From Prauserella salsuginis (GTDB lineage Bacteria; Actinomycetota; Actinomycetes; Mycobacteriales; Pseudonocardiaceae): 64,000 bases of DNA. The stretch covers positions 744,001 to 808,000 of the forward strand of contig NZ_JANBBF010000008.1 in the NCBI RefSeq assembly GCF_024648885.1, in the 5' to 3' direction. Below the pieces are notes generated by a model, which worked only from the letters and a program-made list of their open reading frames with translations, searched no databases and had not been told where the DNA came from. Each line of letters begins with the position of its first letter. The first letter of the stretch is position 1. Shown here piece after piece: positions 3,134 to 30,595 of the stretch. The position numbers and the translations under genes were made by a program.

Positions 3134-3997
3134 TCAAGCAATCGTTTGGTAGAAATTATGGAGAAGCTCGGTCAGCGCCGTCGCCGCAGCGGTTGCCCGC
3201 GCCTCCGGCGACATCGCCGCGCTGCCCGCAGTGGGCGCCTCCACCACGAGCGGCCTGCCGGGCAACGCCGCGAGGAGGCCCATCAGATCGAGGTCGCCGT
3301 GCCCGGGCAGCAACCGCCGTCCGATCGCCTCCCGTCGAAGCGCGTCGTTCTCCCCGCCGGACTCATGTCCCGGCGGTTCCCACGACGCGTCACACAGCTG
3401 CACGTAGGGCATGCAGGCATCGCCGCAGGCCGTGACGGCGGCCGCCACGTCAGCGGGCGTCCCGCCCGAACGGTGCAGGTGCAGCGCGTCGACCAGCACC
3501 CCCGCCCCGGCCGGCACGGCCGTCGCGAGCGCGTCGGAGAGCGTGCGACACGCCGTGAACGCCATCGGCTCCAGGCACGGCAGCACCCCGACCGCAGAGG
3601 CCTCATCGACGATCCCGGCGAGCAGGTCGCGTGCGCGATCGGTCCCGAGCTCGCTGTCGACGACCAGTACACGTGGCGCGCCCAGTTCGGCGGCACCGTC
3701 GATCACGGACCTGATCTCGCCTGCCGTGAGATCGCAGCGCAGCCGGAGCACCTCCACGTCGAGCACGTGCATCCCCGTAGACCGCAGCGCGGCCAGCACC
3801 CGCGCGCGCCGGCCGGGGTCCCGGCCGACGTCACCGGCGACCGAGGTGCGGCTGCCTGCCACACGGAGAGTGACCCCGTCGAACCCTGCCGCCGCAGCGG
3901 CAGCGATGAACACCTCGGGCTCGGTGTCCAGGAAGTCCAGACAAGCCAGCGCCCGCAGGCAGTCCGTGTCCGCCCGCTCCGGCGGCGGTCCGGTCAT
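3134..3997 (-). CDS. Sugar phosphate isomerase/epimerase-type TIM-barrel protein
   Basis: A 287-residue protein resembling the xylose-isomerase-like TIM-barrel family. Seen: FIAAAAAAGFDGVTLRV, metal-ligand-type acidic residues in LVVDSELG, LPCLEPM, GVLVDALHLHRSGG, and VQLCDAS. Start ATG at 3997 overlaps the stop of the upstream VOC gene (ATGA), implying translational coupling. Family members isomerise or cleave hydroxyketo compounds or sugars; with an acyl-CoA ligase and VOC proteins here, a role on a small hydroxyacid intermediate is possible but unproven. Its last codons contain an operator-like palindrome that probably serves the next operon. Confidence 0.7.
   Translation of the reverse strand: MTGPPPERADTDCLRALACLDFLDTEPEVFIAAAAAAGFDGVTLRVAGSRTSVAGDVGRDPGRRARVLAALRSTGMHVLDVEVLRLRCDLTAGEIRSVIDGAAELGAPRVLVVDSELGTDRARDLLAGIVDEASAVGVLPCLEPMAFTACRTLSDALATAVPAGAGVLVDALHLHRSGGTPADVAAAVTACGDACMPYVQLCDASWEPPGHESGGENDALRREAIGRRLLPGHGDLDLMGLLAALPGRPLVVEAPTAGSAAMSPEARATAAATALTELLHNFYQTIA
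3137..3150. promoter_or_regulatory. Operator-like palindrome, site 1 (ALDH operon)
   Basis: AGCAATCGTTTGGT, one mismatch from the window consensus ACCAATCGTTTGGT. It lies 91 bp upstream of the ALDH ATG and overlaps the final codons (Tyr-Gln-Thr-Ile-Ala-stop) of the upstream isomerase gene. Its reverse complement is identical to the site at 8266-8279. Confidence 0.6.
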
Positions 3998-4530
3998 CGC
4001 TCGCGGAACAGGTCGGTGCCGTCCCACCCCTCGGCGGCGCGCGCCACGCGCCCGTACAGCTCGGACAGATAGGGGGTTCGCTCGTACAGTTCGACCAGAT
4101 GCCCCATGGCCGGTCCCACATCGAGGAAGACGAATCGCACCTCGGGCGTCTCGGCGTCCACCACCACCCGCGCCCCGCCCTCCACCATCCGCTCGCACGC
4201 CTGCTCGAGGTCGTCGACGAAGCACGCGACATGGTGGACGCCGATACCGTGCCTGCGCATGTCCCGCTCCAGCGGAGCCGGTTCGAGCGCGTGATGGTGG
4301 ACGAACTCGACCATCACCGGGCCCCACTGTCCCAGCGCGCAGGTGTGGTCGAAGACGCCGTCCAGCACGGTCCCGCCCTCCCCCGGCACCCGGACCCGCG
4401 GAGCCGGCACGTGTTCGCGCACGTAGAACGGCCCTGCCCCGTAGAGCTCGTACCAACGGCGGGCGCTGGTACGCACGTCCGTGGTCGCGTACGCGACCTG
4501 CACCATGCTTGCCCCGTGCGGAAGCCCCAT
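3994..4530 (-). CDS. VOC (glyoxalase/bleomycin-resistance fold) protein
   Basis: A 178-residue vicinal-oxygen-chelate protein with two beta-alpha-beta-beta-beta modules. Seen: MVQVAYATTDVRTSARRW in the first module and GVHHVACFVDDLEQA, then HLVELYE in the second, giving a plausible His and Glu metal site. The ATG at 4530 is chosen because GGAGAA precedes it; an upstream GTG in frame has no good ribosome site. Its stop overlaps the next gene's ATG. VOC enzymes include epimerases, extradiol dioxygenases and lyases; the reaction is not deducible here. Confidence 0.78.
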   Translation of the reverse strand: MGLPHGASMVQVAYATTDVRTSARRWYELYGAGPFYVREHVPAPRVRVPGEGGTVLDGVFDHTCALGQWGPVMVEFVHHHALEPAPLERDMRRHGIGVHHVACFVDDLEQACERMVEGGARVVVDAETPEVRFVFLDVGPAMGHLVELYERTPYLSELYGRVARAAEGWDGTDLFRER

Positions 4531-4585
4531 CGCGTTCTCCTCCGCTTCCCTCCCGCTTTCTCCGGCCGGCCCGCGCACCGGGGTC

Positions 4586-5176
4586 TCATTCCGGGTGCGT
4601 GGTGGCCTTCCAACGTGGCCGCGCCTCGTTCCACTCGATCCGACCCGCCAGCACGTCCGCGATCCCGGCCCCGTCGGGCATGACCGGCTCCGACCACGAC
4701 AGCGGGGAATCGGTGAGCTGGACCAACGTGCCGAATCCGGAGGAAGGGCGGATGAAGGTCTCGTCCCACCATCCGGTTCCGGTACGCGTGTCGACGGTGC
4801 GGAAACCGGCCTCCTCCAGTCGCCTCGCCGCCTCGGTGACGTCCCGGACGAAACAGGTCATGTGGTGGAAACCGGGGCCGTGGCGGTCGAGATAGGCCGC
4901 GAGGTACGACTCAGGGTGCAGCGGCGACAGCAGCTCGACTTTCACGCCCGGCGGGAAGCGCAGCTGCACCGTCCGGAGCCCGAGCCGGTCGTCGTCCCCG
5001 CCCGCGATCAACGTGCCGCCGAGCAGATCGGCGTAGAGCGCGGCCGCCGGGGCAAGGTCGGGCACCGCGACGGCGATGTGATCGAACCGCGTCACCAGCC
5101 CCGCCACGGCGCTCGCAGTGCCCGCGGCGCCGACACCGCCCGCCGTGCCTGCCGCGGACGCCGGCTCGGCGCTCAC
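4586..5176 (-). CDS. VOC family protein, methylmalonyl-CoA epimerase-like
   Basis: A 196-residue VOC protein. Seen: FDHIAVAVPDLAPAAALYAD, VKVELLSPLHPES, HGPGFHHMTCFVRDV and GTLVQLTDSP, close to the methylmalonyl-CoA epimerase pattern with His and Glu ligands. The GTG at 5176 overlaps the stop of the acyl-CoA synthetase gene (GTGA), so translation is probably coupled; the first ~25 residues are Ala/Gly-rich and a later GTG start is possible. Location directly after a CoA ligase fits work on a CoA thioester, but this is inference. Confidence 0.75.
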   Translation of the reverse strand: MSAEPASAAGTAGGVGAAGTASAVAGLVTRFDHIAVAVPDLAPAAALYADLLGGTLIAGGDDDRLGLRTVQLRFPPGVKVELLSPLHPESYLAAYLDRHGPGFHHMTCFVRDVTEAARRLEEAGFRTVDTRTGTGWWDETFIRPSSGFGTLVQLTDSPLSWSEPVMPDGAGIADVLAGRIEWNEARPRWKATTHPE

Positions 5177-6885
5177 GGCAGGTCGATTCCCAGCTCGGCG
5201 CACAGTGCCTCGCGCAGGCGGAACTTCTGGATCTTCGTCGCGGCCATCGGCCACTCGTCGACCACACGCACGTACCGGGGCAGTTTGAAGCTGGCGATCC
5301 GCCCGTGCAGCCACTCCCGCAGTTCCTCGCCGGTGATCTCGTGCCCGTCCCGCAGCTCGACCGCCGCGACGGGGACCTCCACGAGCCGGTCGTCGGGAAT
5401 GCCGACCACCTGTGCGATACCGACCGCGGGATGTCGCTGCAGCGCCTCCTCGATCTCGACGGCGGCCACGTTCTCCCCGCCGACCTTCAGCATGTCCTTC
5501 AGCCGCCCCAGGTACGAGATCCGCCCGTCCGCGTCGACCGTGCCGATGTCGCCGGTGTGGAACCAGCCCTCGTCATCGATCACCGCCGCGGTGGCCTCGG
5601 GGTCGTTCCGATAGCCCTCGAACATCGAATAGCCGCGGACACATATCTCGCCGCGCTCACCGGTCGGCACCGGCACGCCGGTCTCGGCGTCGACAACGCG
5701 TACCTGAATTCCGGGGAACGGCGGCCCGCTCGTGTTGGTGCGCTGCTCGAGCGTGTCGGTGGGGACCGAGAACGAGACGCACCCACCGGTCTCCGTGGAA
5801 CCGTACGCGGTCACCACGGCGGCGTGCGGCCACAGCTTCTGCAGTTCGCGCAGCGTCGCGGGCGGCGCCACACCGTTGATCACGCGCACAGCGCTCCAGT
5901 CCACGGCAGAGAACTCCGGATGGTCGGCCAGAGCCTGGGTGATCGTCGGGAACGTCGGGTAGAAATGCGTGAGCCGCGCGGAGCGGAGCATCGCGATGGC
6001 TCCGTCGGGCTCGAAATGCTCCATCGACAGGAACGTCGCGCCCGTGTAGAAGCAGCCGTTCATCGGCAGCACCGACGACATATGGAACATCGGCAGCGGA
6101 TCCCAGAAGCGGTCCCCACCATGAACGTCCAGGCGGTCGGCCACCGCGATGGCGTTGCGTACCACCATCTCGTGGCTGAGCGCGCAGCCCTTGGGCTGGG
6201 CCGTGGTTCCGGAGGTGTACATCATCATGCCGACCTCGCGCAGCGACACCTGTCTGCGCAGCGCGTGCACCTCTTCCGGCGTGATGTGCTCGGCACCCGT
6301 GTAGAACCCCTCCCGGCGCAGGTACGCCGGTCCGCACTCACCGTCGCCGAGGACGACCACGGCCTCCAGCGTGGGCACCGACGGCACCGGGAACGCGTCG
6401 CGACGGCGCGGGTCGAGTTCCGGCATCGCGGCCTCGATGCGGTCGGTGAGCCCGAACGGCTGCCCCGCGTGGCAAGCCGACACGAGCACCTTGACGTCGG
6501 CGTCGCCGAGCACGTGCGCCAGGTCGTCGCCCTGGTAACGCGCGTTGATCAGCACCGCCACGGCGCCGAGCATCGTCGCGCCGTAGGACACGCGCGCGAA
6601 GTCGGCACAGTTCGCCATGAGGATGCCGACGTGGTCCCCCGGCCCTACGCCCATCGCGCGAAGCGCGCGTGCGGCCAGCTCCGCGTCGGCGGCGAGCTCG
6701 GCGAAGGTGAGTCGTTCTCCCGGGAAGACCAGCGCCTCGGAGTCGGGCCACAGTGCGGCCGCCCGCACGACCACGTCGCCGATCGGAACCGCCTCGGCCC
6801 ACCCGGGCGACCCGGCCGCGCCGCGACCGGCTGGCACGGTTCTCGGTACCGGAACCTGCTGCGAGGACGTCTCCATTGTCGTCAC
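5173..6885 (-). CDS. Acyl-CoA synthetase (AMP-forming ligase, FadD-like)
   Basis: A 570-residue ANL-superfamily ligase that activates a carboxylic acid to its CoA thioester through an acyl-AMP. Seen: P-loop MMMYTSGTTAQPKG, adenylate motif AYGSTETGG, the hinge/ATP motif GWFHTGDIG followed by YLGRLKDMLKVGGENV, and a C-terminal catalytic Lys region (MAATKIQKFRLRE). The GTG start at 6885 has GGAGG eight bases upstream; an in-frame ATG lies three codons later. It is 159 bp downstream of the acyl-CoA dehydrogenase gene and is followed directly by two VOC genes, which suggests activation of the pathway acid before beta-oxidation-like steps. Confidence 0.9.
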   Translation of the reverse strand: MTTMETSSQQVPVPRTVPAGRGAAGSPGWAEAVPIGDVVVRAAALWPDSEALVFPGERLTFAELAADAELAARALRAMGVGPGDHVGILMANCADFARVSYGATMLGAVAVLINARYQGDDLAHVLGDADVKVLVSACHAGQPFGLTDRIEAAMPELDPRRRDAFPVPSVPTLEAVVVLGDGECGPAYLRREGFYTGAEHITPEEVHALRRQVSLREVGMMMYTSGTTAQPKGCALSHEMVVRNAIAVADRLDVHGGDRFWDPLPMFHMSSVLPMNGCFYTGATFLSMEHFEPDGAIAMLRSARLTHFYPTFPTITQALADHPEFSAVDWSAVRVINGVAPPATLRELQKLWPHAAVVTAYGSTETGGCVSFSVPTDTLEQRTNTSGPPFPGIQVRVVDAETGVPVPTGERGEICVRGYSMFEGYRNDPEATAAVIDDEGWFHTGDIGTVDADGRISYLGRLKDMLKVGGENVAAVEIEEALQRHPAVGIAQVVGIPDDRLVEVPVAAVELRDGHEITGEELREWLHGRIASFKLPRYVRVVDEWPMAATKIQKFRLREALCAELGIDLP

Positions 6886-7044
6886 CGCGGTGTCCTCCCT
6901 GCTGCTCGTGTGCGTGCGCTGATTGCCGACAGCCGAGACTCGACCCGCCGGGCGCACATCAGAGGACGACAGTGCACCACCGGCACCGCCGGTGACACCA
7001 GGTCCTCGCCACCCCCACGGATTCCGACGTCCGGCGGGGCCGGC

Positions 7045-8208
7045 TCAGAACGACCGGGGCAGCCCGGCCATCTCGGCGATCGAGTTGCGGGCCATCTCGT
7101 TGGCGATCGGCCCGATCCGGTACAGGCGCGCGTCCCGCCAGTACCGTTGCATCTGGGTTTCGAGCGCGTAGCCCATGCCGCCGAAGATCTGGATACCGCG
7201 GTCGGCGGCCGTGACCGCGCCCTCGGACGCGACGATCTTGGCCATGTTGGCCTGCATGCCGCAGTCCAACCCTTCGGCCTGGCGCCACGCGGCCTCGTAG
7301 ATCAGCAGCTCCGCCGACTTCTGGGCGATGAGCATATCGGCGTAGTAGTGCTGCAGCACCTGCATCCGGCCGAGCTTCTTGCCGAACACGTCGCGCTCGT
7401 CGAGATAACGCTTGGCCTCCTCGATGACACCGTCGAGAATGCCCAACGCGAGCGCGGACATCACGATCCGCTCGTTGTTGAGGGTCTTGAGCAGCATGTA
7501 CCACGCCTGCCCCGGATCGCCGAGCACGAGTTCGTCCGGCACGAACACGTCATCGAGGAACACCTCGCAGGATCCCACGTTCTTCATGCCTAGCTTGGGG
7601 ATCTGCCTGCATTCGACGCCCTCGGCCTCGCGTGGGACGAGGAACAGTGTGGTACCACCGGTCTTCTTGGCCGGGTTCTTCTCCGTACGGGCCAGCAGGA
7701 GGAGGTAGTCGGCGACGTGGGCCTGCGTGGACCAGATCTTCTGGCCGTTGATGACCCAGCCACCCTCGGAACGGGTGGCTGTAGTCGCGAGCACGCCGAG
7801 TAGGTCGGTCCCCCCGGCCGGCTCGGTCACCGAGATCGCGAACTTCTTCGAGCCGTCGGCAACCTGTGGCAGCAGCCGACGCTTCTGCTCCTCCGTGCCG
7901 TAGTAGCCGACGGATTTCGCTCCGGCGAAGGCGTTGATGCCCCAGATCCACGCGATACCCCCCAGGGAACGGGCGAGTTCGCGGATCAGGATGACCTGAT
8001 CGAGCTCGGTGCCACCGGAACCGCCGTAGGCCTCGTCGATCCCGATGCCGTGGAATCCCACCTCGGCCATCCTCGCGAAGAGTTCGTGGGGGTATTCGAA
8101 CTCCTGCTTCTCCAGTTCGAGTGCCGCCTCCTTCGGGCACTCCTTCTCGACCCACTCCCGGACGGTCTTCCGGAACGCCTCCTGCTCGTCTGTGAGCGCG
8201 AAGTCCAC
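7045..8208 (-). CDS. Acyl-CoA dehydrogenase
   Basis: A 387-residue FAD-dependent acyl-CoA dehydrogenase. Seen: N-terminal helical domain (DFALTDEQEAFRKTVREW), FAD-binding ISVTEPAGGTDL and GWVINGQKIWST, and the C-terminal block with a candidate catalytic Glu in GGMGYALETQMQRYWRDARL. The start is GTG at 8208 with AGGAGGAACC immediately upstream. It heads the left-going operon, and an operator-like palindrome lies 57 bp upstream. The enzyme would introduce a 2,3-double bond into the CoA ester made by the following synthetase; electron acceptor (ETF) genes are not in the window. Confidence 0.92.
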   Translation of the reverse strand: MDFALTDEQEAFRKTVREWVEKECPKEAALELEKQEFEYPHELFARMAEVGFHGIGIDEAYGGSGGTELDQVILIRELARSLGGIAWIWGINAFAGAKSVGYYGTEEQKRRLLPQVADGSKKFAISVTEPAGGTDLLGVLATTATRSEGGWVINGQKIWSTQAHVADYLLLLARTEKNPAKKTGGTTLFLVPREAEGVECRQIPKLGMKNVGSCEVFLDDVFVPDELVLGDPGQAWYMLLKTLNNERIVMSALALGILDGVIEEAKRYLDERDVFGKKLGRMQVLQHYYADMLIAQKSAELLIYEAAWRQAEGLDCGMQANMAKIVASEGAVTAADRGIQIFGGMGYALETQMQRYWRDARLYRIGPIANEMARNSIAEMAGLPRSF

Positions 8209-8265: not shown

Positions 8266-8279
8266 ACCAAACGATTGCT
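8266..8279. promoter_or_regulatory. Operator-like palindrome, site 2 (acyl-CoA dehydrogenase operon)
   Basis: ACCAAACGATTGCT, one arm perfect and one with a single mismatch; 57 bp upstream of the GTG of the acyl-CoA dehydrogenase in a 179-bp divergent intergenic region. Confidence 0.6.
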
Positions 8280-8335
8280 CGATTTATGGAACACCGACCC
8301 CCGGGCGATGTCAAGCACGACGAGGACTTTCATCA

Positions 8336-8349
8336 ACCAATCGTTTGGT
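8336..8349. promoter_or_regulatory. Operator-like palindrome, site 3 (VOC-ferredoxin operon)
   Basis: ACCAATCGTTTGGT with perfect 5-bp arms, 38 bp upstream of the rightward VOC gene. It is identical to the site at 30582-30595 and 57 bp from site 2, so the divergent region carries one box per promoter. Confidence 0.68.
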
Positions 8350-8387: not shown

Positions 8388-8948
8388 ATGACCCGCGTGC
8401 ACATCGACCACGTCGCGCTCTGCGTGAAGGATCTCGACCAGGCCATCGAGGACTGGACGGACATCCTCGGCGTGCTCACCCCCGAGCTGACAGAGACGAT
8501 CACCTACTCCCGCGGCAGCTCGGACGGCACCGAGATGGTGTGGGCCACCTTCCAGAACCCCGATCCGACCGGTGTCTCCATCCAGATGTGGGCACCCGGC
8601 TCGCCCGACAGCTGGGTGCACAAGGTGCTCGCCAAACGCGGTGAGTTCGTCCACCACATCGCGTTCCTGAGCGACAACTTCGGGCACACCATGCAGCAGT
8701 GCCGCGAGGCAGGCCTGCCCGTACTGCTCGACGAAGACAGCCACCCCGACACCATGCCGTGGCTCAAGTGGAACTTCCTGCCCGAGTCCAAGGCGCACGG
8801 TGTGCTGATCGAACTCGCCACGCGTTACCAGGTCGGAGGCGACCGGTGGCTGCCCCACCCGGGCAATGCCGAGAACGACGACCTGCAGAAGGAACTCACC
8901 GACCGGTTCTACACCGACCCGGGACTCAAGGGCGGAGGCAAGCCGTGA
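8388..8948 (+). CDS. VOC family protein
   Basis: A 186-residue VOC protein. Seen: VHIDHVALCVKDLDQAIEDW, FVHHIAFLSDNFGHT and GVLIELATRY, the usual His/His/Glu metal-ligand layout. ATG at 8388 is preceded by GAAAGGA. It is first in the rightward operon VOC-ferredoxin-reductase-ferredoxin-ADH, and its stop overlaps the ferredoxin start (GTGA). It is one of four VOC proteins in the putative regulon; the reaction is unknown. Confidence 0.8.
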   Translation: MTRVHIDHVALCVKDLDQAIEDWTDILGVLTPELTETITYSRGSSDGTEMVWATFQNPDPTGVSIQMWAPGSPDSWVHKVLAKRGEFVHHIAFLSDNFGHTMQQCREAGLPVLLDEDSHPDTMPWLKWNFLPESKAHGVLIELATRYQVGGDRWLPHPGNAENDDLQKELTDRFYTDPGLKGGGKP

Positions 8949-9133
8949 AGATCAGCGTCGACATGAACGTCTGCCAGAACTACGGGCAGTGCGTGTTCGC
9001 CGCGCCGGAGGTGTTCGATCTCGACGACGCCGGTGGCCTCGTCTACCAGCCGACGGTGGGCGACACCGCACGGGGCGAGGTCGAGGCCGCTGCGATGGCG
9101 TGCCCGGTGCAGGCCATCACGATCGAGGGATGA
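8945..9133 (+). CDS. 3Fe-4S ferredoxin, P450 redox partner type
   Basis: A 62-residue ferredoxin. Seen: VCQNYGQCVFAAPEVFDLDD and a C-terminal Cys-Pro (MACPVQAI), giving the three cysteines of the single [3Fe-4S] type that feeds electrons to bacterial P450s. The GTG start at 8945 overlaps the VOC stop. The partner reductase follows with an ATGA overlap; the likely P450 is in the convergent operon (13.3-14.6 kb). Confidence 0.92.
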   Translation: MKISVDMNVCQNYGQCVFAAPEVFDLDDAGGLVYQPTVGDTARGEVEAAAMACPVQAITIEG

Positions 9134-10368
9134 GCATGGCGTCCACCCGGGACCGACGCATCGTCGTCGTCGGCGGCTCCCTCGGCGGACTCCGCGTCAC
9201 CGAGGCGATCGCGACCGGCGGCTGGGAGGGCGAGATCGTCGTCGTCTCCGCTGAGACACACGCGCCCTACACCCGCCCGCCGCTGTCCAAGACGGCGTTG
9301 GTGACGGGACCGGACCCCGACGCGCTGGCGTTCAAACACGGGCTCGAGGCCGGACGGGCACAGTGGCGGTTCGGCGCCCGGGCCGTGGCCGCGGACCTCG
9401 CCGGCCGCACCGTGACCCTCGCCGACGGCAGCACCCTCGGATACGACGGTCTGGTCGCCGCCACCGGGGTGCGGCCGCGACAGCTGCCCGCCGGTGTGGA
9501 CCGCACCGGCGGCGCGACGCACGTCATCCGCACGGTGGAGGACTGCCGCGCGTTGCACGGCGCGCTGCGGTCGCACCCGCGAGTGGTCGTGCTCGGGGCG
9601 GGGTTCATCGGCTGTGAGGTCGCCGCGACGGCGGCCGGACTGGGCTGCCGGGTCACCGTGGTCGCCCTCGACGAGGCGCCGATGCTGCGACCGCTCGGCC
9701 GTGCGGTCGGCGACGCGGTGCGGACCCGGCACGAGCAGGAGGGCGTGGAGTTCCGGCTCGGCTCTGCGGTGTCGTCCGTGCGAACCGAGGGCCGGGTGCA
9801 CATCGTGGAGCTCGACGACGGCACGTCCGTGGCGGGCGACGTCGTGGTGCAGTCCGTGGGCTCGTCGCCCTGTGTCGAATGGCTCGCAGACAACGGCCTC
9901 GACCTCACCGACGGTATCGAGACCGACAACCGGATGCGGGCCGGATCCGTCCCCGGCGTGGTCGCCGTCGGTGACGTGGCTCGGTTCCCGAACCCGCTCT
10001 TCGACGACGTCCCACGTCGGGTCGAGCACTGGCAGATGCCCCTGGACACCGCGCGACGGGCGGCGTCGACCCTGCTCGGCGATCTGGCCGGCGCGGACAC
10101 CGATCCGGCGCCGTTCACTCCCCTTCCCTCCTTCTGGTCCGATCAGTACGAGCTGCGCCTGCAGTCCTTCGGCGCACCGGGTCTTGCCGACCGGATCGAC
10201 GTTCTCGAGGGCGACCTCGCCGAACACGCCGCCGTGGTCGGCTACTTCCGGGACAACCGCCTGGTCGGCGCACTCGCCCTCGGACTGCCCCGACGGGCCG
10301 TGGCGGTCCGCAGGAAGCTGCTCGCGTCCTTGTCCGATCCCGCACCGATGTGCCCCTCCCTGACCTGA
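9130..10368 (+). CDS. FAD-dependent ferredoxin reductase
   Basis: A 412-residue NAD(P)H:ferredoxin reductase of the putidaredoxin-reductase type. Seen: FAD Rossmann VVVGGSLGGLRVTEAI, second dinucleotide motif VVVLGAGFIGCEVAATAA, and the FAD-contacting VAVGDVARFPN, followed by a C-terminal reductase domain. The ATG at 9130 overlaps the ferredoxin stop, so the two are translationally coupled. It would pass electrons from NAD(P)H to the 3Fe-4S ferredoxin and on to the P450. Confidence 0.9.
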   Translation: MSMASTRDRRIVVVGGSLGGLRVTEAIATGGWEGEIVVVSAETHAPYTRPPLSKTALVTGPDPDALAFKHGLEAGRAQWRFGARAVAADLAGRTVTLADGSTLGYDGLVAATGVRPRQLPAGVDRTGGATHVIRTVEDCRALHGALRSHPRVVVLGAGFIGCEVAATAAGLGCRVTVVALDEAPMLRPLGRAVGDAVRTRHEQEGVEFRLGSAVSSVRTEGRVHIVELDDGTSVAGDVVVQSVGSSPCVEWLADNGLDLTDGIETDNRMRAGSVPGVVAVGDVARFPNPLFDDVPRRVEHWQMPLDTARRAASTLLGDLAGADTDPAPFTPLPSFWSDQYELRLQSFGAPGLADRIDVLEGDLAEHAAVVGYFRDNRLVGALALGLPRRAVAVRRKLLASLSDPAPMCPSLT

Positions 10369-10392
10369 ACACCCGGCAACAGAGGAGACCCG

Positions 10393-10713
10393 ATGACCTA
10401 CGTGATCGCCGAGTCCTGTGTGGACCTCAAGGACAAGGCCTGTATGGATGAATGCCCCGTCGACTGCATCTACGAGGGCGACCGGATGCTCTACATCCAC
10501 CCCGACGAGTGTGTCGACTGCGGAGCCTGTGAGCCGGTGTGCCCGGTGGAAGCGATCTACTACGAGGACGACGTGCCCACGGAACTGTCCGTCTACACCG
10601 CCGTCAACGCCGAGTTCTTCGGCGCACTCGGCAGCCCTGGAGGCGCCACCGGGCACGGCGCCGAGGAACGAGACCATCCGCATGTCGCGGCGCTGCCGAA
10701 GGTGATGTCGTGA
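10393..10713 (+). CDS. 7Fe (3Fe-4S/4Fe-4S) ferredoxin FdxA-type
   Basis: A 106-residue ferredoxin. Seen: N-terminal MTYVIAESCVDLKDKACMDECPVDC and CVDCGACEPVCPVEAIYYEDD, the standard seven-iron pattern of actinobacterial FdxA. A GGAGACCCG box precedes the ATG. Its place after the P450 ferredoxin and reductase suggests a second electron carrier for pathway enzymes, possibly a low-potential partner; which enzyme it serves is not known. Confidence 0.9.
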   Translation: MTYVIAESCVDLKDKACMDECPVDCIYEGDRMLYIHPDECVDCGACEPVCPVEAIYYEDDVPTELSVYTAVNAEFFGALGSPGGATGHGAEERDHPHVAALPKVMS

Positions 10714-12532: not shown

Positions 12533-12564
12533 GTTCCGCCCTTCCCCATGAATCTGCGGTCCGG

Positions 12565-20007: not shown

Positions 20008-20027
20008 CGAGACCTCCGATTTAATCA

Positions 20028-20041
20028 ACCGACTGATTGGT
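20028..20041. promoter_or_regulatory. Operator-like palindrome, site 4 (MaoC-thiolase-P450 operon)
   Basis: ACCGACTGATTGGT, right arm TTGGT perfect and left arm with one mismatch, 20 bp upstream of the MaoC ATG in an AT-richer patch. The position is suited to blocking RNA polymerase. Confidence 0.52.
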
Positions 20042-20084
20042 AGAAGTCTGCCAGACGGCGCGGGCCGTGCCAAGAAGCGGCAAC

Positions 20085-21891: not shown

Positions 21892-21931
21892 CGCGTTCTC
21901 CTTCTGATCGATGGGCTCGCCGATGATGCGG

Positions 21932-23024: not shown

Positions 23025-23038
23025 ACCGTTCGTTTGGT
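23025..23038. promoter_or_regulatory. Operator-like palindrome, site 5 (moaA / hydrolase divergent promoters)
   Basis: ACCGTTCGTTTGGT: the right part CGTTTGGT is identical to the consensus and the left arm is diverged. It lies 61 bp upstream of moaA and 56 bp upstream of the alpha/beta hydrolase start, so it could serve both directions and autoregulate tetR. Confidence 0.52.
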
Positions 23039-23094: not shown

Positions 23095-24051
23095 ATGGCC
23101 GCCACGGAACGCATCGGACGCGCCGACACTGCGGACTACCGCACACCACCGACATCTGCCGGGGTCGCCGAACCGCCCGACTGGGCGTCCCACGCACTCG
23201 GACGCGAGCGACGGATGGGCCGGGTCGTGTGCGACGGCGTGACGATCCGCTACCTCAGCTGGGGTGACCCCGCTGCACCCGCGACGGTGCTGGTCCACGG
23301 CGGCGCGGCGCACGCCATGTGGTGGGCTCCCCTGGCCGCACTGCTCGACCACGGCGGACACGTCGTCGCACTCGACCTGTCCGGGCACGGACTCAGCGAC
23401 CACCGGCCGGTCTACTCAGTGGGAACGTGGGCACGCGAGGTCGTGGCGGTGGCGGAGGCCGTATCGCCCGACCCGGCGACCATCGTCGCGCACTCGCTCG
23501 GAGGGATCGCGAGTTCCGTCGTCCTGACCGATCCCGCCCTGGCCGAACACGTCCGGCGCGTGGTGCTGGTGGACACACCTGCCTGGCCGGACGCACCTGC
23601 CCCCGAGCAGCCGCTGGCCGAACGGGAGGTGCGCCCGCACCGGATCTACGCTGCGGCCGCCGAAGGAGTCGCCCGCTTTCGCCTCGTCCCTCCGCAGCCG
23701 TGCGACAACGACTGGTACGTCGACCACATCGCCTGGCACGGCCTGCGACCGGTCGACGAGCCGCACGCGCCCGCTGCGGGCGTGCAGTGGCGGTTCGACC
23801 CGCGGATCTTCGCCAACCCGACCGGCAACCACCAGATCGTCCGGTTCGGCGGCGACCTCGACGAGGCGTGTCGGCCGTTCGCCGTGGTCATGGGTGAACG
23901 TTCGTATCTCGCCGAGGGCGCGCGGCGGGCACTGGCCGGGCGGCCCGACACACCGCTGCTCTTCGTTCCGGATGCCGCGCATCACGTGATGCTCGACCAG
24001 CCGCTGAGCCTGCTCTCGACCCTGCGTTCCCTGCTCACAACCTGGCCGTGA
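23095..24051 (+). CDS. Alpha/beta hydrolase
   Basis: A 318-residue alpha/beta hydrolase. Seen: oxyanion strand VLVHGGAAHAMWW, nucleophile elbow VAHSLGG, and a C-terminal catalytic His in PDAAHHVM. ATG at 23095 is chosen over GTG at 23089 because GGAGGGG lies 8 bases before it. It is transcribed alone, divergent from the moaA operon, and converges on the TRAP operon. It may hydrolyse an ester, lactone or ring-cleavage product of the pathway. Confidence 0.87.
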   Translation: MAATERIGRADTADYRTPPTSAGVAEPPDWASHALGRERRMGRVVCDGVTIRYLSWGDPAAPATVLVHGGAAHAMWWAPLAALLDHGGHVVALDLSGHGLSDHRPVYSVGTWAREVVAVAEAVSPDPATIVAHSLGGIASSVVLTDPALAEHVRRVVLVDTPAWPDAPAPEQPLAEREVRPHRIYAAAAEGVARFRLVPPQPCDNDWYVDHIAWHGLRPVDEPHAPAAGVQWRFDPRIFANPTGNHQIVRFGGDLDEACRPFAVVMGERSYLAEGARRALAGRPDTPLLFVPDAAHHVMLDQPLSLLSTLRSLLTTWP

Positions 24052-24066: not shown

Positions 24067-24627
24067 TCACAGACCGTGGACCCGGGTACCGCCTTCCGGC
24101 CCACGTCGCACATCCTCGACAGCCGTCACGATCTGTTCCAGCGCAAGGATGAGGAAACCGGCGAACACGGCGACCCGTGCCGGCCACATCGGCAGTCGTA
24201 CGAGACCCAGCTTGTATTCACCCGTCTCCAGTGCGGCAGCCAGCACGTCCCAGGACGCCCATGCCAGCAGCACGGCGACCGATGCGGCACCCAACCCGCC
24301 CACGAACCGCACGACCCGGTACGTGCGCCCCGACAGCCGGTCCACAACGGACGACATCGAGACGTGCTGTCGGCGTCGTTCCGCCTCGCCCAGGGCGAAG
24401 AAGGCCAGTACCGCCATCGCCAACTCGACGTACTCGACGATGCCGCGTACCTCCGGTTGCCCGGACAGGCGCAGCACGACGTTGTAGGTCACGAGCAGCA
24501 TCACGAACAACATGCCGACGACCGACACGACTGACATCGCCCGCGCCAGGGCGTGCACGGCGGCGGCGAACCCTCGGCCGGTCGCACCCGCGATCCTGCC
24601 GATTCCTGTGGCGGCGCGCTCGGTCAT
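24067..24627 (-). CDS. TRAP transporter small membrane subunit (DctQ)
   Basis: A 186-residue membrane protein with four hydrophobic segments, for example VVSVVGMLFVMLLVTYNVVL and AVLLAWASWDVLAAAL, and the family-like VEYVELAMAVLAFFALGEAERR. The ATG at 24627 overlaps the DctM stop. It is the small integral subunit of a Na+-driven TRAP importer. Here the gene order is P-M-Q rather than the more common P-Q-M. Confidence 0.85.
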   Translation of the reverse strand: MTERAATGIGRIAGATGRGFAAAVHALARAMSVVSVVGMLFVMLLVTYNVVLRLSGQPEVRGIVEYVELAMAVLAFFALGEAERRRQHVSMSSVVDRLSGRTYRVVRFVGGLGAASVAVLLAWASWDVLAAALETGEYKLGLVRLPMWPARVAVFAGFLILALEQIVTAVEDVRRGPEGGTRVHGL

Positions 24628-25961
24628 GAGCTCAGTCCCATCTGGCTCGGGATGAAGGTGACGATCGCGGGAAAGGTGAACATCAGGACCACGACGATGA
24701 TGTCCAGTCGCACGTACCACAGCACCCCGCGGAAGGCGGTGCTGATCTCGATGTCCTTCCGAATTCCCGCGACGACGAAGGCGTTGAGCCCGAGCGGCGG
24801 CGTGAGCAGGCCGATCTCGATCAACTTGACGAACAGCAGCCCGAACCAGATCCCGTTCATACCCAGCTCGCTGACGACCGGGTAGGTCAGCGGAACCATG
24901 ATCAGCAGGATCGACGTCGGGTCGAGGAACATTCCCATCGGGACGAGCACGATCAACAGCAGGGCGACGATCAGCCACGCCGGCAGCGACAGACCTGTCA
25001 GCCCGTCGGTGAGCAGCTGCGGAGCGCCGGCCGCCACCATGAACGAGGAGAAGATCGCCCCGCCGATGAGTAGCGAGAAGACCATTCCGTTGAGACTGAC
25101 CGCGGCGGTGAGCGCACCCCACAGGTTGCGCCGCAGTTCCCGTGGCTTTCGGAGGTGTTCGATGATCACCATGAGCACCGCGACGAACGCACCGACCGCC
25201 GCGGCCTCCACGGCCGTGAACAGGCCGGAATACATTCCGCCGATGACGATCACGAACAGCAGACCGATCCGGAACAGGCTGTAGACACCCGCCAGCAGTG
25301 CGGGCCGGTCGCTGAGCGGAAGGACCTCCTCTGCTCCCTTGCCGAACAGCTCCGGTTTGCGCTTGGCCCGGATCATGATGCTGACGCCGTACACGGTCGC
25401 AGTGACCACACCCGGCCCGATGCCGGCCATGAGCAGCGCGCCGATGGGTTCACCGGTCAGTACGCCGTAGATGACCAGCGGCACGCTCGGCGGAATGAGG
25501 ACACCGAGCGTGCCGGCCGCGCCGACCACACCGGCGGCGACATGCATCGCGTAGCCGGCCTTGCGCATCTCCGTGATGGCGAGATTGCCGATCGAGATCA
25601 CCGTGGCGATGCTGGAGCCACTGACGGCGGCGAAACACGCGCACGCCGTCAGAGTCGCCACCGCCAGACCGCCGGGCAGGCCACGAAGAAACCACCCGAG
25701 TACGCGATAGGCACCCTCCGCGAGGTTCGCACGCTCGGCGGCATTGCCGAGCAGCACGAACATGGGGATCACCAGCAGCGTGAACTTGGAGGCGCTCTCG
25801 ATCGGCAGCGCACCCAACGTCGACATGCCGACGTCCCAGCCGTCGAGCAGGTAATAGCCGACGAACCCTGCGAAGGTCAGCGCCAGCGCGATGCGCATGC
25901 CCACGAGCAGACACCCCGCCAGGATCCCGACGACCACGAGGAAGAGCTCCACCGTGCTCAT
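24624..25961 (-). CDS. TRAP transporter large permease (DctM)
   Basis: A 445-residue polytopic membrane protein with about a dozen hydrophobic segments. Seen: VVATLTACACFAAVSGSS-type block (ACACFAAVSGSSIATVISIG), GVLIPPSVPLVIYGVLTGEPIGALL, and LTPPLGLNAFVVAGI, hallmark DctM regions. ATG at 25961. It forms the translocation channel with DctQ. Its placement in the operator-linked regulon suggests that the pathway substrate is an anionic carboxylate taken up by it. Confidence 0.92.
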   Translation of the reverse strand: MSTVELFLVVVGILAGCLLVGMRIALALTFAGFVGYYLLDGWDVGMSTLGALPIESASKFTLLVIPMFVLLGNAAERANLAEGAYRVLGWFLRGLPGGLAVATLTACACFAAVSGSSIATVISIGNLAITEMRKAGYAMHVAAGVVGAAGTLGVLIPPSVPLVIYGVLTGEPIGALLMAGIGPGVVTATVYGVSIMIRAKRKPELFGKGAEEVLPLSDRPALLAGVYSLFRIGLLFVIVIGGMYSGLFTAVEAAAVGAFVAVLMVIIEHLRKPRELRRNLWGALTAAVSLNGMVFSLLIGGAIFSSFMVAAGAPQLLTDGLTGLSLPAWLIVALLLIVLVPMGMFLDPTSILLIMVPLTYPVVSELGMNGIWFGLLFVKLIEIGLLTPPLGLNAFVVAGIRKDIEISTAFRGVLWYVRLDIIVVVLMFTFPAIVTFIPSQMGLSS

Positions 25962-26037
25962 CGGCGACCCCTCCGCTCCGCATCAGCGGCATTTCCTGAC
26001 CACATCACGGTGATCCCGGCCGTGCCGCACCACGTCG

Positions 26038-27141
26038 CTAGTTCCGACCACATGTACTCAGCCCGTTCACATAGCCCGTCTCGCCGGAGTGACGGGCCAG
26101 GGAATCGGTGTACTGCTGCCACAACTCGTCCGCCACGGACCGGTCGACGGACTTGGCCGCCTCGGCCTTCCACACCGGCGGTGCCAGGCGTTCGACCGCT
26201 TCCTTCATCGTTTCGCGGTCCGCGTTGCGCCAGCGCACGATGGTTCCGCCCGACTCGAGGAAATCACGACACGCCTGTCGGTCGTACTTGGTCATCAACT
26301 CGTCGGCCTTGGCGGGCCATTCCTTCTTCAGTTGCTCCACGACCTCCTTGGCATCCTCGGGCAGTCGCTCGTAAGTGCGACTACTGAAGGCGAAGACCGA
26401 ACCACCACTCTCGCCGACATCCGAGGCCATGTACTTCGCGACATCGGTGATGCCGTTGGCGACCTGGGTGTCCATCGGGTACGTGACACCGTCGACGATC
26501 CCGCGTTCGACCGACTCGTACACCTCTTCGGATGCCTGAAACGTCGCCTTGGCGCCGAGTTCCTCCCACACCACCGATGACGGCTGCGCCGGGATGCGGA
26601 TCTTGAGCCCCTCCACGTCGGCCAGCGAGGTGACCTCCGGACCAAAGGTCACAGCGGACGCGTTGTTGGGCAGGAAACCGATGAGTTCGATCTGCTGTTG
26701 CTCGAACTCTCGCTCGAACTGCTCCACTCCGTCGGCGAGGTCCTGCAACGCCCGCAGTCGAGCCGACTGGTCCGCATCCGAGATCGGCACCATGTTGATG
26801 TTGTTCAGTGGCAACTCGGCGGGAAAGTACGCGGGTACGACGTTGCCCGCCTCGGCGCGCCCCTGCTGCAGCCCAGGAAGCGTGTCGGTGCCCGCCAGAA
26901 GTCCGCCGCCGTACGTGACGTCCGTCTTGACCTGACCGTCGGTGCGCTTCTCCAGTTCCGACATGAACCATGCGATGAGGTCCGACTGCGAGCCGCCCGG
27001 CGGAAGCACCTGGGCTGCACGGATCTCCACCGGACCGCCCGCGTTGGATGCGGCACCTCCGCAGCCACTGATCGCCAGGGCGACAACCGAGAGTATCGCG
27101 AGGAACCGGGACGCCCGGCCTCTCGTGGTGGTGCGCGTCAT
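26038..27141 (-). CDS. TRAP transporter solute-binding lipoprotein (DctP)
   Basis: A 367-residue binding protein. Seen: N-terminal positively charged region, hydrophobic core and lipobox ISGC with Cys near residue 27, so it is probably lipid-anchored outside the membrane. Mature part: AQVLPPGGSQSDLI, GLKIRIPAQPSSVVWEELGA, VDGVTYPMDTQVANGITDVA, the usual TRAP P-subunit blocks, including an Arg that typically pairs with substrate carboxylate. ATG at 27141 with GGAGGCGCA. First gene of the TRAP operon; 76 bp separate it from dctM. Confidence 0.9.
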   Translation of the reverse strand: MTRTTTRGRASRFLAILSVVALAISGCGGAASNAGGPVEIRAAQVLPPGGSQSDLIAWFMSELEKRTDGQVKTDVTYGGGLLAGTDTLPGLQQGRAEAGNVVPAYFPAELPLNNINMVPISDADQSARLRALQDLADGVEQFEREFEQQQIELIGFLPNNASAVTFGPEVTSLADVEGLKIRIPAQPSSVVWEELGAKATFQASEEVYESVERGIVDGVTYPMDTQVANGITDVAKYMASDVGESGGSVFAFSSRTYERLPEDAKEVVEQLKKEWPAKADELMTKYDRQACRDFLESGGTIVRWRNADRETMKEAVERLAPPVWKAEAAKSVDRSVADELWQQYTDSLARHSGETGYVNGLSTCGRN

Positions 27142-27162: not shown

Positions 27163-27176
27163 ACCAACCGATTGGT
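27163..27176. promoter_or_regulatory. Operator-like palindrome, site 6 (TRAP operon)
   Basis: ACCAACCGATTGGT with perfect ACCAA/TTGGT arms, 21 bp upstream of the dctP start codon. Confidence 0.68.
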
Positions 27177-27492
27177 CAATTAATCTCGACGAGGGGGTGT
27201 GGTGTCAAGCACACACGAACGTGGAGATAGTGACGTGGGTCACGTGATCGGGTTTGCGTTGGTCGCTCGCCGAACACCTTCGGCCGACCCGGTCACGCGC
27301 GGGAGACCAACACCAGCGGGCACGGATCACATGGTCGAGAACAGAGCCGGAGTCGCGGCAGCTCCCCGCGTCAACGAGGGGCCCGACACCTCACGGATCA
27401 TGTGAAGCGTTCGCGAAGAACCAGGTCTCCGACCGGTTGACGACGTCGTCGGCGTCAATACCGAACCGGGAGTCCCGGATCAGCAGCAGCCG
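27177..27492. other. Intergenic region upstream of dctP
   Basis: Holds the dctP promoter region with the CRP-like palindrome at 27230-27243. No convincing gene is visible; short open frames here lack ribosome sites or family features. Confidence 0.55.
27230..27243. promoter_or_regulatory. CRP/GlxR-like palindrome upstream of dctP
   Basis: GTGACGTGGGTCAC is a perfect GTGAC-N4-GTCAC inverted repeat about 90 bp upstream of the dctP start. It resembles the TGTGA-N6-TCACA site of CRP-family activators such as actinobacterial GlxR. Assignment is by pattern only. Confidence 0.4.
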
Positions 27493-28278
27493 TCACAGCG
27501 AATAACCTCCGTCCACGTCGATCCACTGGCCGGTCACATAACGGGCCTCATCGGAGACCAGGAAGCCAACCGTGGCCGCGATGTCGCGCGCCTTGCCGAA
27601 TGTGCCCAGCGGAATCCGCCCACGCGCCACCTCGAGGCTTTCGGGCCGAATGTCGCCGTGGTCGATCAGGACCTGCGTCATACCCTCATCGAGAATGCCG
27701 ACACCCACGGCGTTCGCACGCACGCCGTAGCGTCCCTCTTCCGCCGCCACCGCCCGCACGACCGCTTCGTTCGCCGCCTTTGGACCGCTCGAGAGGACGT
27801 CCCGCAGCACGAAACGTCGGTTGGCAACCGTGGACACGACCACCACCGAGCCGCGACTCTCCCGCAAGGAAGGCAGAGCCGCCGAGATCACCGTGTAGGT
27901 GCCGCCGGAGTCCACGCGCAACTGCTCGAGGTACTGCTCCGGCGGAATCGTGCTGGTCCAGCCCTGGAAGTTCGTCGGGGACGCGGCCAGCACCACCGTG
28001 TGCAGCCCGCCGTGCCGCGCGACCGCTTCTCCGACGACCTCACGCACCCGGAAGGCGTCGCCGAGGTCCAGGTGGACCGCGACACCGTCCCGGCCCACCT
28101 CCTTCACGGCCAGGGCGGTCTCCTCGGCCGCGGCGCTGTTGCCGGCGTAGGTCACGGTCACGTCGCCGCCGAGTTCCGCAAGCCGAACCGCGACGGACCG
28201 CCCGATCGCGCCGCTGCCGCCGATCACGAGGCATCCGCCGGCCCGACCGCCGAAAGCGCCCTGATCCCGCGTAGTCAT
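27493..28278 (-). CDS. SDR-fold protein lacking the catalytic tyrosine
   Basis: A 261-residue Rossmann SDR. Seen: cofactor loop VIGGSGAIGRSVA, TYAGNSAAAEE, Ser in VVVVSTVANRR, and C-terminal YVTGQWIDVDGGYSL. The YxxxK motif is replaced: Lys at about 167 is in SSGPKAANE and residue 163 is Ser, not Tyr, and NNAG is replaced by LAASP. It therefore may be a non-classical reductase, isomerase or binding protein. Its ATG overlaps the molybdopterin oxidoreductase stop by one base, so the two probably act together. Confidence 0.82.
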   Translation of the reverse strand: MTTRDQGAFGGRAGGCLVIGGSGAIGRSVAVRLAELGGDVTVTYAGNSAAAEETALAVKEVGRDGVAVHLDLGDAFRVREVVGEAVARHGGLHTVVLAASPTNFQGWTSTIPPEQYLEQLRVDSGGTYTVISAALPSLRESRGSVVVVSTVANRRFVLRDVLSSGPKAANEAVVRAVAAEEGRYGVRANAVGVGILDEGMTQVLIDHGDIRPESLEVARGRIPLGTFGKARDIAATVGFLVSDEARYVTGQWIDVDGGYSL

Positions 28279-30560
28279 CAGTCCTCCGTCGTCGTCCCGG
28301 TCAGGACTCGCTCCCTCGGCGGCGCTACCGGTTCCTCACCGGCGCGGATACGGCACCGCGCACCGCGCAGCGGCTGGTCGCCCGCGAAGCTCGACAGTTC
28401 CGGCGCGCCCGGGGTGATGGCGTTCGCGTTCGACACCCACACACCCGAAAGGTGCGGCTCGTACTGCGCCTCGTCGGGGTTCCACCAGTAACCGTCGGGA
28501 TTGACGGTGTCCAGCCGCAACGAGGGGTCCAGTCGCGCCCGCTGCCTGATTGCCCCCTCCGGCCGTTCGATGATCATCCATTCCCCGTCGGAGATTCCGT
28601 ACTGCGTGGCGGTGTCAGGATGGACATCGCAGATCGGCTCGGGATGAATCCGCTTCAGGCGCTCACTCTGCCGGAGGTTGGAGGCCGTGAGCTCACGGAC
28701 CCTGCTGCCCGGGATCATCTGCAGCGGGTACTCCCCCTCCGGGGCGTCGGGCACCGAGTACGGCGGTCCGGTGTAGACGGGACGGGCCTCGACCCCGAAT
28801 CGTTCGAACAGGCTGGGCACCAGTTCCACCTTGCCGGAGGGAGTGGCGAAGCCGCGTTCCTTGTACTTGTAGAACACCGGCTTGATGAATCGGTGGTTCA
28901 CCTCTCCGTCGGCCCACTCGCGGTAGCTCTTGCCCGAGGGAGCCAGGAAACGGTCGAACATGCCCTCGACGGTCTCCGGCCAGTAGTCCGGATCGTCGGA
29001 GAGCCTGCGCCCCAACTCGGCCCACAGGTCGTAGTCGTTGCGGCGCTCCCCCACCGGTTCGGCGCTCTGCTGGCCGACGACGAAGAAGTTGCCGATGCCC
29101 CAGTGAGCACTGAGGTCCGCGCGCTCCATGAAATCCGCGGCCGGCAGGACGTAATCCGACAGCTGCGCGGTCGGGGTCATCCACATGTCCATGGTCACCA
29201 GGAGTTCCAGCTTCTCACTGGTGAACGCATCGTAAGCGGCTTTGCCCGCACCCATCGACAGCAACGGCTCGCCGCACTGCACGAGTACCGCCTTGACCGG
29301 GTACGGGTCCTGCTCGGTGATGGCGCGGTAGATGGCGGGCTGGCTGGCGAACAGGACGTAGGCGGTGCCCGTGTGACCCTCCGGGTAGATCTTCGCCGTG
29401 GCCTCCCGGAAAGCCTTGTATCCGGAGATCGAGGTGATGGGCGTTTCGTGTGCGTTCACGCTCTCCCGCGTGCGCAGCGGGTGGTCGACCAGCTTCTCGA
29501 AGTTGATGTTGGGCAACCACGAGAAGGTGTTCTCGTCGTAGGGGTTGCCGAGCGGTTCGCCGCCAGGACGGTCGAGGTTGCCGGAGATGGCGCGCAGAAT
29601 CGATCTGCCGAGCACCGCCGACCGCGAAGCGCCCTCCCCGAGCTGCGTCGCGGCGACACCGAACGACAGCCGCGCGGGACCGAGCGTGGCGTACATGTGT
29701 GCGGCGGTCACGATGTCGTCCGCCGGGACTCCGGTGATCTCTTCGGTGCGTTCGGGAGTCCACTGCGCGGCCTCCTTCTCCACCTCGTCGAAGCCGGTGC
29801 ACCAGTTCTCGACGAACTCCTTGTCGTAGATCCCGTCGCGGATCATCACGTGGATCAGGCCGAGCGCGAGAGCGCCGTCGGTACGCGGACGAACCGGCAG
29901 GTGCAGATCAGCGCGCGCCGCGGTCTTGGTCCTGCGCGGGTCGACCACGATCAGCTTGGCCCCCTGGGCCTGACACTGGCGCAGCCGCTCGAACGAGGGC
30001 GGCGACGACTCCGCGGGATTGGATCCCCAGATCACGATGCACTTGGTCTTACCGGGGTAGAAACTCTGGTACACGGTGTCCCAGCCGTACATCGAGATCT
30101 CGGCAATGTACTCGCTGACGCCGCAATTGCGTCCCTGGCTGACGAAGTTCGGGGTACCGAAATCCGCCGCCCAACGCCAACTCGCCCAATCGCCCGGCGT
30201 CTTGTGCGTACCGCCGAGCGTCGCGACCGACTCGGGACCGTCCTGCTCACGCAGATCACGCAGTTTCGCCGCGATCTCGTCCATGGCCTGCTGCCAGGAG
30301 ATCCGCTCCCATTTGCCCTCGCCTCGCTTGCCCACTCGCTTCAGCGGGAAGTTGAGGCGGTCATCGTGCCGGTGGATCTCGAGCGCGGTCGTCCCCTTGA
30401 TGCACAGCTTGCCGTTGGCAACCGGATTGTTGCGATCACCGTCGAACGCCTGCGGCTCCCCCTCGCCGTCCACCCGGAAGAGCATCCCGCAGTGCTGTGG
30501 GCACAGAGTGCAGAACGTCCGACGGACCTCGGAACCGTCGGTGTAGTTGAGCTTGGCCAA
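28278..30560 (-). CDS. Molybdopterin oxidoreductase of the DMSO-reductase superfamily
   Basis: A 760-residue bis-MGD enzyme. Seen: N-terminal [4Fe-4S] cysteines at about 17, 20, 24 and 53 (CTLCPQHCG and KLCIKG), GRNCGVSEY with Cys near 146 as candidate Mo/W ligand, VIWGSNPAESSPP, and a C-terminal dinucleotide-binding domain. Length and cysteine layout recall thiosulfate/polysulfide reductases, acetylene hydratase and similar soluble members. No electron-transfer subunit genes flank it, so it may use the pathway ferredoxins or perform a non-redox hydration or hydroxylation. ATG at 30560; an operator-like box ends 22 bp upstream. No twin-arginine signal, so cytoplasmic. Confidence 0.9.
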   Translation of the reverse strand: MAKLNYTDGSEVRRTFCTLCPQHCGMLFRVDGEGEPQAFDGDRNNPVANGKLCIKGTTALEIHRHDDRLNFPLKRVGKRGEGKWERISWQQAMDEIAAKLRDLREQDGPESVATLGGTHKTPGDWASWRWAADFGTPNFVSQGRNCGVSEYIAEISMYGWDTVYQSFYPGKTKCIVIWGSNPAESSPPSFERLRQCQAQGAKLIVVDPRRTKTAARADLHLPVRPRTDGALALGLIHVMIRDGIYDKEFVENWCTGFDEVEKEAAQWTPERTEEITGVPADDIVTAAHMYATLGPARLSFGVAATQLGEGASRSAVLGRSILRAISGNLDRPGGEPLGNPYDENTFSWLPNINFEKLVDHPLRTRESVNAHETPITSISGYKAFREATAKIYPEGHTGTAYVLFASQPAIYRAITEQDPYPVKAVLVQCGEPLLSMGAGKAAYDAFTSEKLELLVTMDMWMTPTAQLSDYVLPAADFMERADLSAHWGIGNFFVVGQQSAEPVGERRNDYDLWAELGRRLSDDPDYWPETVEGMFDRFLAPSGKSYREWADGEVNHRFIKPVFYKYKERGFATPSGKVELVPSLFERFGVEARPVYTGPPYSVPDAPEGEYPLQMIPGSRVRELTASNLRQSERLKRIHPEPICDVHPDTATQYGISDGEWMIIERPEGAIRQRARLDPSLRLDTVNPDGYWWNPDEAQYEPHLSGVWVSNANAITPGAPELSSFAGDQPLRGARCRIRAGEEPVAPPRERVLTGTTTED

Positions 30561-30581
30561 GGCAGCACTCCAATCCGACCT

Positions 30582-30595
30582 ACCAATCGTTTGGT
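30582..30595. promoter_or_regulatory. Operator-like palindrome, site 7 (molybdoenzyme operon)
   Basis: ACCAATCGTTTGGT, identical to site 3 and placed 21 bp upstream of the molybdopterin oxidoreductase ATG, followed by an AT-rich stretch (GAATTTAA). Confidence 0.68.

Follow-up and report, generated by a model that had tools for sequence, protein, structure and literature searches.

Local control of a catabolic gene block by a TetR repressor is already well known, and KstR2 of mycobacteria and rhodococci, which controls steroid ring C/D genes (ipdAB, fadD3, fadE30 and others), is among the systems closest to the locus described here. In the available text on KstR2, its operator is a 14-bp palindrome, AnCAAGnnCTTGnT, with gel-shift support, and the operators lie mostly 22-82 bp from gene starts, that of its own operon included, with three motif instances per genome (PMC3068626). 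PfmR (TTHB023) of Thermus thermophilus has the operator TACCGACCGNTNGGTN, and its sites often span start sites (PMC7022988). A third relative, AibR (entries 5k7h and 5k7z, with isovaleryl-CoA and operator DNA), resembles the regulator discussed below in having a TetR fold and, in what is described of it, an acyl-CoA effector.

The window analysed here is a stretch of 64,000 nucleotides from Prauserella salsuginis, and positions are counted from its first letter. The sequence-only reading had proposed that seven related palindromes stand in front of eight transcription units, and all seven boxes are present, 20-91 bp (box end to start codon) from the first genes. On the minus strand, AGCAATCGTTTGGT (3137-3150, plus-strand letters) lies 91 bp upstream of the aldehyde dehydrogenase (ALDH) start, ACCAAACGATTGCT (8266-8279) 57 bp upstream of an acyl-CoA dehydrogenase gene, ACCGACTGATTGGT (20028-20041) 20 bp upstream of the first gene of a thiolase-P450 operon, ACCAACCGATTGGT (27163-27176) 21 bp upstream of the TRAP transporter gene dctP and ACCAATCGTTTGGT (30582-30595) 21 bp upstream of a molybdoenzyme gene. 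On the plus strand, ACCAATCGTTTGGT at 8336-8349 precedes a VOC-ferredoxin-reductase operon by 38 bp, and ACCGTTCGTTTGGT (23025-23038) is common to a hydrolase gene on the plus strand (56 bp) and to the moaA-VOC-SnoaL-tetR row on the minus strand (61 bp). The internal relations claimed for the set hold as well: the arms ACCAA/TTGGT are perfect in the 8336, 27163 and 30582 boxes, those at 8336 and 30582 are identical, and those at 3137 and 8266 are reverse complements of each other. The consensus is roughly ACCAANCGNTTGGT, and weaker sites have G or T at positions 4-5. Six of the seven boxes lie outside accepted ORFs, in a region where these ORFs leave just 2732 of 30255 bases uncovered; the 3137 box falls within the last codons (3' end) of ORF 3134-3997, which codes for a TIM-barrel protein.

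How far such boxes single out this block depends on the stringency of the search. With up to 3 mismatches allowed, the window holds 24 matches against 15.6 expected, a count that 4 of 100 shuffles reach, and bare arms with at most 1 mismatch are not enriched genome-wide (35 places vs 55 for the reversed control). The tight motif ACCAANNNNTTGGT, on the other hand, has 4 copies in 5.64 Mb, of which 3 are within the cluster and the fourth is inside an ORF. An IUPAC pattern covering all seven boxes, ASCRWNYGWTTGST, has 7 matches in the whole genome of 5.64 Mb, each of them in the block, and its reversed control has 0 matches in the same genome; as the pattern was fitted to the seven sites, its absence elsewhere is the informative part. 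Allowing it 1 mismatch gave 94 strand hits genome-wide vs 37 for the control, with the excess scattered over the genome. Loose motif counts, either near background or in excess throughout the genome, were rejected as a means of isolating the regulon. Random density of the motif across the genome, which the sequence-only reading had named as counting against its proposal, was not found with the tight motif.

A 14-column weight matrix points in the same direction: 7 window hits reach 15 bits, whereas 60 dinucleotide shuffles average 0.45 such hits and never give more than 2, and the seven boxes have leave-one-out scores of 14.3-24.4 bits. The matrix was then used to rank 111 places (112 rows, one occurring twice) that came from two mismatch searches rather than from a full-genome matrix scan. 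The top five (22.7-25.0 bits) are cluster boxes, and ten places in all reach 17.3 bits: the seven boxes plus three outside the cluster, which score 17.9-19.0 bits. The weight-matrix check thus upheld the seven boxes as high scorers but did not set all of them apart, since the two weakest, 23025 (18.3 bits) and 20028 (17.3 bits), overlap the scores of the three outside places; for this pair the score by itself does not decide the matter, and the case is made by conservation. Two of the high-scoring outside places, C2:720813 and C2:693529, are within long ORFs. The unlinked box-like sequence AGCAATCGATTGTT at G000:C7:71423 (L108:1500; 19.0 bits) precedes an ORF that by eye resembles an AraC-type regulator, and it also falls within a long opposite ORF; it is a possible extra target of the TetR protein.

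Conservation could be followed in few genomes, that is G020 and G088, two Prauserella-type genomes, together with 20 kb of P. flavalba that was scanned. From the alcohol dehydrogenase to the molybdoenzyme the cluster is nearly all syntenic in G020 and G088, with no close counterpart in either for the SDR gene 11813-12532. In five intergenic alignments of the three genomes, with gaps counted as change, 14, 12, 14, 13 and 14 of the 14 box columns are invariant, against 97/171, 66/166, 39/121, 77/351 and 53/136 of the other columns of the same alignments (22-57%). The first alignment scored the 8336 box and not the 8266 box, which by eye is also unchanged in G020 and G088. The two are 70 bp apart here and in G020 and 71 bp apart in G088. 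The 23025 box, weak-looking by score, is identical at 14/14 positions in both genomes. A palindromic operator is thus kept at the cluster promoters of the orthologous loci except at 3137, where neither syntenic genome has a counterpart and the ALDH gene closely follows the TIM-barrel gene. The IUPAC pattern is found at 6 places in G088 and 10 in G020 (5 in the cluster in each) and at 0, 1 and 2 places in G001, G002 and G003, and the reversed control at 1, 4, 2, 0 and 1 places in G088, G020, G001, G002 and G003. A GTGCTTGACA-like element is also seen near the boxes at 8266-8349 and 27163-27230 and is, by eye, conserved in G020 and G088; it may be the -35 region of regulated promoters.

The candidate regulator is encoded within the cluster, at 20177-20860 on the minus strand, and has TetR_N and TetR_C_24/TetR_C_4 domains above the Pfam cut-off. 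Its predicted model (mean pLDDT 85.5) matches PfmR (3vpr), KstR2, AibR with isovaleryl-CoA, an unnamed Thermobifida TetR protein, DarR and FadR with stearoyl-CoA, so that by Pfam and by fold it combines a helix-turn-helix with the ligand domain of the FadR/KstR2/PfmR subgroup. PfmR is the best fold match, at 34% identity; its operator shares the ACC..GGT frame and the CG step with the boxes, but the inner bases differ and 9-11 of 14 positions are identical (N counted as mismatch), and the genes described for PfmR lie at several genome places rather than in one block. As the sequence-only reading had it, tetR belongs behind the 23025 site: it is the fourth gene of a co-directional row (moaA, VOC, SnoaL, tetR) that is presumably co-transcribed. 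An operator-type box therefore stands at the regulator's own operon, which suggests autoregulation.

Regulator and box tend to be found together. A match to the TetR protein (222-227 aa) occurs in 10 of 150 genomes, its own included, and the orthologues in G020 and G088 are 87-89% identical; identity is 89% in P. flavalba and 52% in Amycolatopsis acididurans. All six same-genus genomes are without a TetR orthologue (E<=1e-30) and without a strict box. The strict pattern ACCAANCGNTTGGT is present in 35 of the 150 genomes, own included, as a single copy in 25 of the 35, and three copies are seen in 4 genomes, three of which are the cluster bearers (the present genome, G020 and G088), with all copies in the cluster. 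In G145, with a TetR homologue of 34% identity, there are two strict copies, both 1.6-2.0 kb from the homologue gene. The recognition-helix residues L49 K50 G51 S52 Y54 Y56 (L-K-G-S-x-Y-x-Y) are invariant in 11 aligned sequences, and G51 and S52 vary in three more distant homologues.

Eight loci with distant homologues were scanned with the window matrix, each against 200 shuffles. At 13 bits, A. acididurans has 4 hits, G145 4, G113 5 and G069 3, counts that 0 of 200 shuffles reach in each case, and G046 has 2 hits (6/200), G010 1 (15/200) and G042 1 (35/200). At 15 bits, A. acididurans has 2 hits, G145 3 and G113 3 (each 0/200), and G042 (4/200), G010 (5/200), G069 (13/200) and G046 (16/200) have 1 each; the G123 locus (35% identity) has no box at 13 or 15 bits. 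Boxes are hence in excess at 4 of the 8 loci at 13 bits and at 3 of 8 at 15 bits, where G069 drops out. Identity of the homologue to the TetR protein is 52% in A. acididurans, 34% in G145 and 39% in G113 (34-39% for these last two with G069), and the loci of A. acididurans, G145 and G113 are arranged differently from the cluster. Neighbouring control stretches in G145 gave 1 hit (42/200 at 13 bits, 10/200 at 15 bits) and 0. At a threshold of 12.5 bits, ten scanned stretches yielded 23 hits, with two stretches having none. Of these hits, 20 are immediately upstream of a called gene, with nearest distances of -20 to 81 bp, and two of the 20 are also inside another called ORF; in G145 one box precedes the longest tetR ORF by 11 bp. 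The other three hits are inside called ORFs only, one of them in A. acididurans between tetR and the start of the VOC similarity, where the ORF call seems over-extended. A pooled table of 14 of the 23 sites, selected by their scores, was set aside and does not enter the argument. Over whole genomes, the relaxed pattern is close to its control in G010 and G069, and in G113 and G145 it is about 2-4 times as frequent as the control. Two further features were seen at these loci: G046 has a second TetR homologue on contig C8, with a TGA inside, and in A. acididurans a pair of box-like palindromes overlap each other in the gap between divergent genes, about 5.4 kb beyond tetR (L029:16004-16030).

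The proposal of one regulon under the local TetR protein is supported by the specificity of the tight motif, the co-occurrence of box and TetR gene, the boxes at distant homologues and the similar operators of relatives. We consider it very likely, at about 0.88, that the seven boxes are operators through which the protein encoded at 20177-20860 would repress eight promoters, its own included. A competing idea on the identity of the binding protein is that the boxes are bound by a regulator encoded elsewhere, e.g. a TetR protein of the KstR2 or PaaR type, and that the local TetR protein acts only at its own promoter or recognises a different motif. TetR paralogues can have related palindromes, TTHB023 and SbtR are reported, in the text available, to have common sites in Thermus (PMC7022988), and 11 of the 14 positions of the KstR2 operator ACCAAGCACTTGCT agree with two boxes of the window. 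KstR2 itself is the second-best entry by fold, has a similar recognition helix, and is likewise a local repressor of a catabolic cluster with a 14-bp palindrome of common outer frame. The KstR2 motif, as published in the part available, has G6 and C9 in its core; none of the seven boxes has them, so in sequence the boxes are not KstR2 operators, and there are seven putative operators here rather than three motif instances per genome. The cluster is carried by three of the four genomes with three strict boxes, boxes recur near TetR homologues in differently arranged loci, and regulator families besides TetR are absent among the cluster proteins given to Pfam, a set without ORFs such as 11813-13329, 15678-16067 and 19107-19570. 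A binding protein from elsewhere is therefore improbable. Among 19 proteins given to NCBIfam (18 in the block and one beside it, with the best 25 families listed for some), none passes the cut-off of a steroid family; scores below cut-off are 330.7 of 657 bits for the FadD3-family ligase, 401 of 515 for the steroid thiolase and 66.9 of 450 for IpdE2.

That the palindromes are a repeat of another sort, left by a mobile element or arisen by chance in intergenic DNA rich in AT, has very little in its favour: most boxes do lie in AT-richer promoter DNA and loose matches are near background, yet 14 bp are selectively conserved amid diverged flanks, the fitted pattern is without a match elsewhere in the genome, and the boxes are in promoter position. 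A regulon smaller than proposed deserves more weight and still seems unlikely to us. Here the 3137 box would be a chance or decayed site, with the ALDH and alcohol dehydrogenase genes read through from the 8266 promoter, as its overlap with the upstream ORF, its lack of a counterpart in G020 and G088 and the close succession of the TIM-barrel and ALDH genes there would suggest. Against this, the score of the 3137 box is 22.7 bits (21.8 with leave-one-out), its letters are exactly those of the conserved 8266 box in reverse complement, and by eye a CATAAT-like hexamer adjoins it. Within the seven-site set first proposed, 3137 is the weakest claim.

The position of the boxes suits the preferred reading of local TetR repression. 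On the plus strand the 23025 box fills the spacer from TTGACA to TTAATT, and the 8336 and 20028 boxes are similarly placed; at 27163, 8266, 3137, 30582 and, on the minus strand, 23025, the box is directly 3' of a -10-like hexamer, with the 27163 box just 3' of a TTGACA/ATTAAT-like promoter. In the two stretches given to a promoter scanner no sigma-70-type site exceeded the threshold, and these elements are therefore assigned by eye. Both placements suit a repressor. A TetR dimer would bind the 14-bp palindrome and block the eight promoters, its own among them, in one of two ways: by occupying the spacer between -35 and -10 (8336, 20028 and 23025 on the plus strand) or the start-site region downstream of the -10-like element (3137, 8266, 27163, 30582 and 23025 on the minus strand). 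An acyl-CoA intermediate, arising from the ligase and the beta-oxidation enzymes of the cluster, would most likely release it, so that the genes for import, activation, oxidation and cofactor supply would be induced together. By analogy, the TetR protein is probably acyl-CoA-responsive, because its known relatives are and because a ligase, a dehydrogenase and thiolases are under its putative control; DarR, which binds c-di-AMP, is among the fold matches, so fold does not settle the class of effector.

The genes concerned suggest a degradative pathway. An NDMA-dependent alcohol dehydrogenase (TIGR03989) and the ALDH are encoded at 446-3045 (minus strand), followed at 3134-8208 (minus) by the TIM-barrel protein, two VOC proteins, an acyl-CoA ligase (5173-6876) and the acyl-CoA dehydrogenase. 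The plus-strand operon at 8388-10713 codes for a VOC protein, a small Fe-S ferredoxin (about 8945-9133, by eye), a ferredoxin reductase and a 4Fe-4S ferredoxin, and its ferredoxins and reductase are likely the electron chain of the P450. The latter is encoded within 11813-20007 (minus), together with two SDR-like proteins (by eye), an SCP2/BbsB-type thiolase, a DUF35-like protein (by eye), a FadA-like thiolase, two luciferase-like (LLM) proteins and two hot-dog-like ORFs. The label MaoC that had been given to 19567-20007 received no support from Pfam, which found no family over 19567-20073, where one of the hot-dog-like ORFs lies. Co-directional with tetR, genes for SnoaL-like, VOC (Glyoxalase_4) and MoaA proteins occupy 20865-22963 (minus), and moaA (21932-22963) is the second full-length copy in the genome, the other being at G000:C3:708474. 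The remaining units code for an alpha/beta hydrolase (23095-24051, plus), the TRAP transporter DctQ, DctM and DctP (24067-27141, minus), and an SDR with an acetylene-hydratase-like molybdopterin enzyme (27493-30560, minus). Relatives of the P450, thiolase and DctP gave generic matches only, and plasmid searches returned one distant record each. The 27-kb cluster probably breaks down an organic acid taken up by the TRAP transporter. Outside the regulon, at 51948-55009, a large ORF appears by eye to be a xanthine-dehydrogenase-type molybdoenzyme, beside a [2Fe-2S] protein (Fer2_2).

The molybdoenzyme (28278-30560) matches acetylene hydratase 2e7z over its full length (residues 15-712, E 4.6e-102), and the next structural hit is at E 9.4e-56 over residues 12-334. 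At E<=1e-120 it is found in 3 of 150 genomes, its own included, and these are the three cluster bearers. We take the Asp beside the Fe-S cluster of 2e7z to be its catalytic Asp; the protein encoded here has Pro at this place, after the second cluster Cys, and is therefore not called an acetylene hydratase. Exchange of Asp for Ala leaves acetylene hydratase nearly inactive, in the portion of the source available (PMC6013536). The likeness to acetylene hydratase and to catechol dehydroxylases, as far as the latter are described in the text available (PMC7028382), is full-length, with the Asp replaced by Pro here.

The pathway, with its TRAP importer, P450 chain, molybdoenzyme and dedicated MoaA, looks undescribed and is the more novel part of this locus than its control. 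The box in six spellings was not found in the literature searched, no publication was found for TRAP, TetR and acetylene hydratase in combination, and, for Prauserella clusters and actinobacterial TetR regulons, no title among the matches listed was recognisable as this cluster. It is a tentative suggestion, which we hold at less than even odds, that the cluster represents a so far undescribed route of aerobic catabolism in Pseudonocardiaceae. Its components would be an altered-site molybdoenzyme of the acetylene-hydratase/catechol-dehydroxylase group with its own MoaA, the TRAP importer, the P450 chain and a beta-oxidation branch of thiolase and LLM proteins, all governed by one acyl-CoA-sensing TetR protein through a distinct ACCAA-NCGN-TTGGT operator class. 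With these boxes about 30 loosely annotated genes become one testable functional unit, and whatever relieves the repressor points to the substrate of the pathway, that of the altered-site molybdoenzyme included. The results also suggest an operator class for this TetR subgroup, whose LKGSxYxY helix recurs in homologues across the order, and which may be useful for regulon prediction and for building biosensors.
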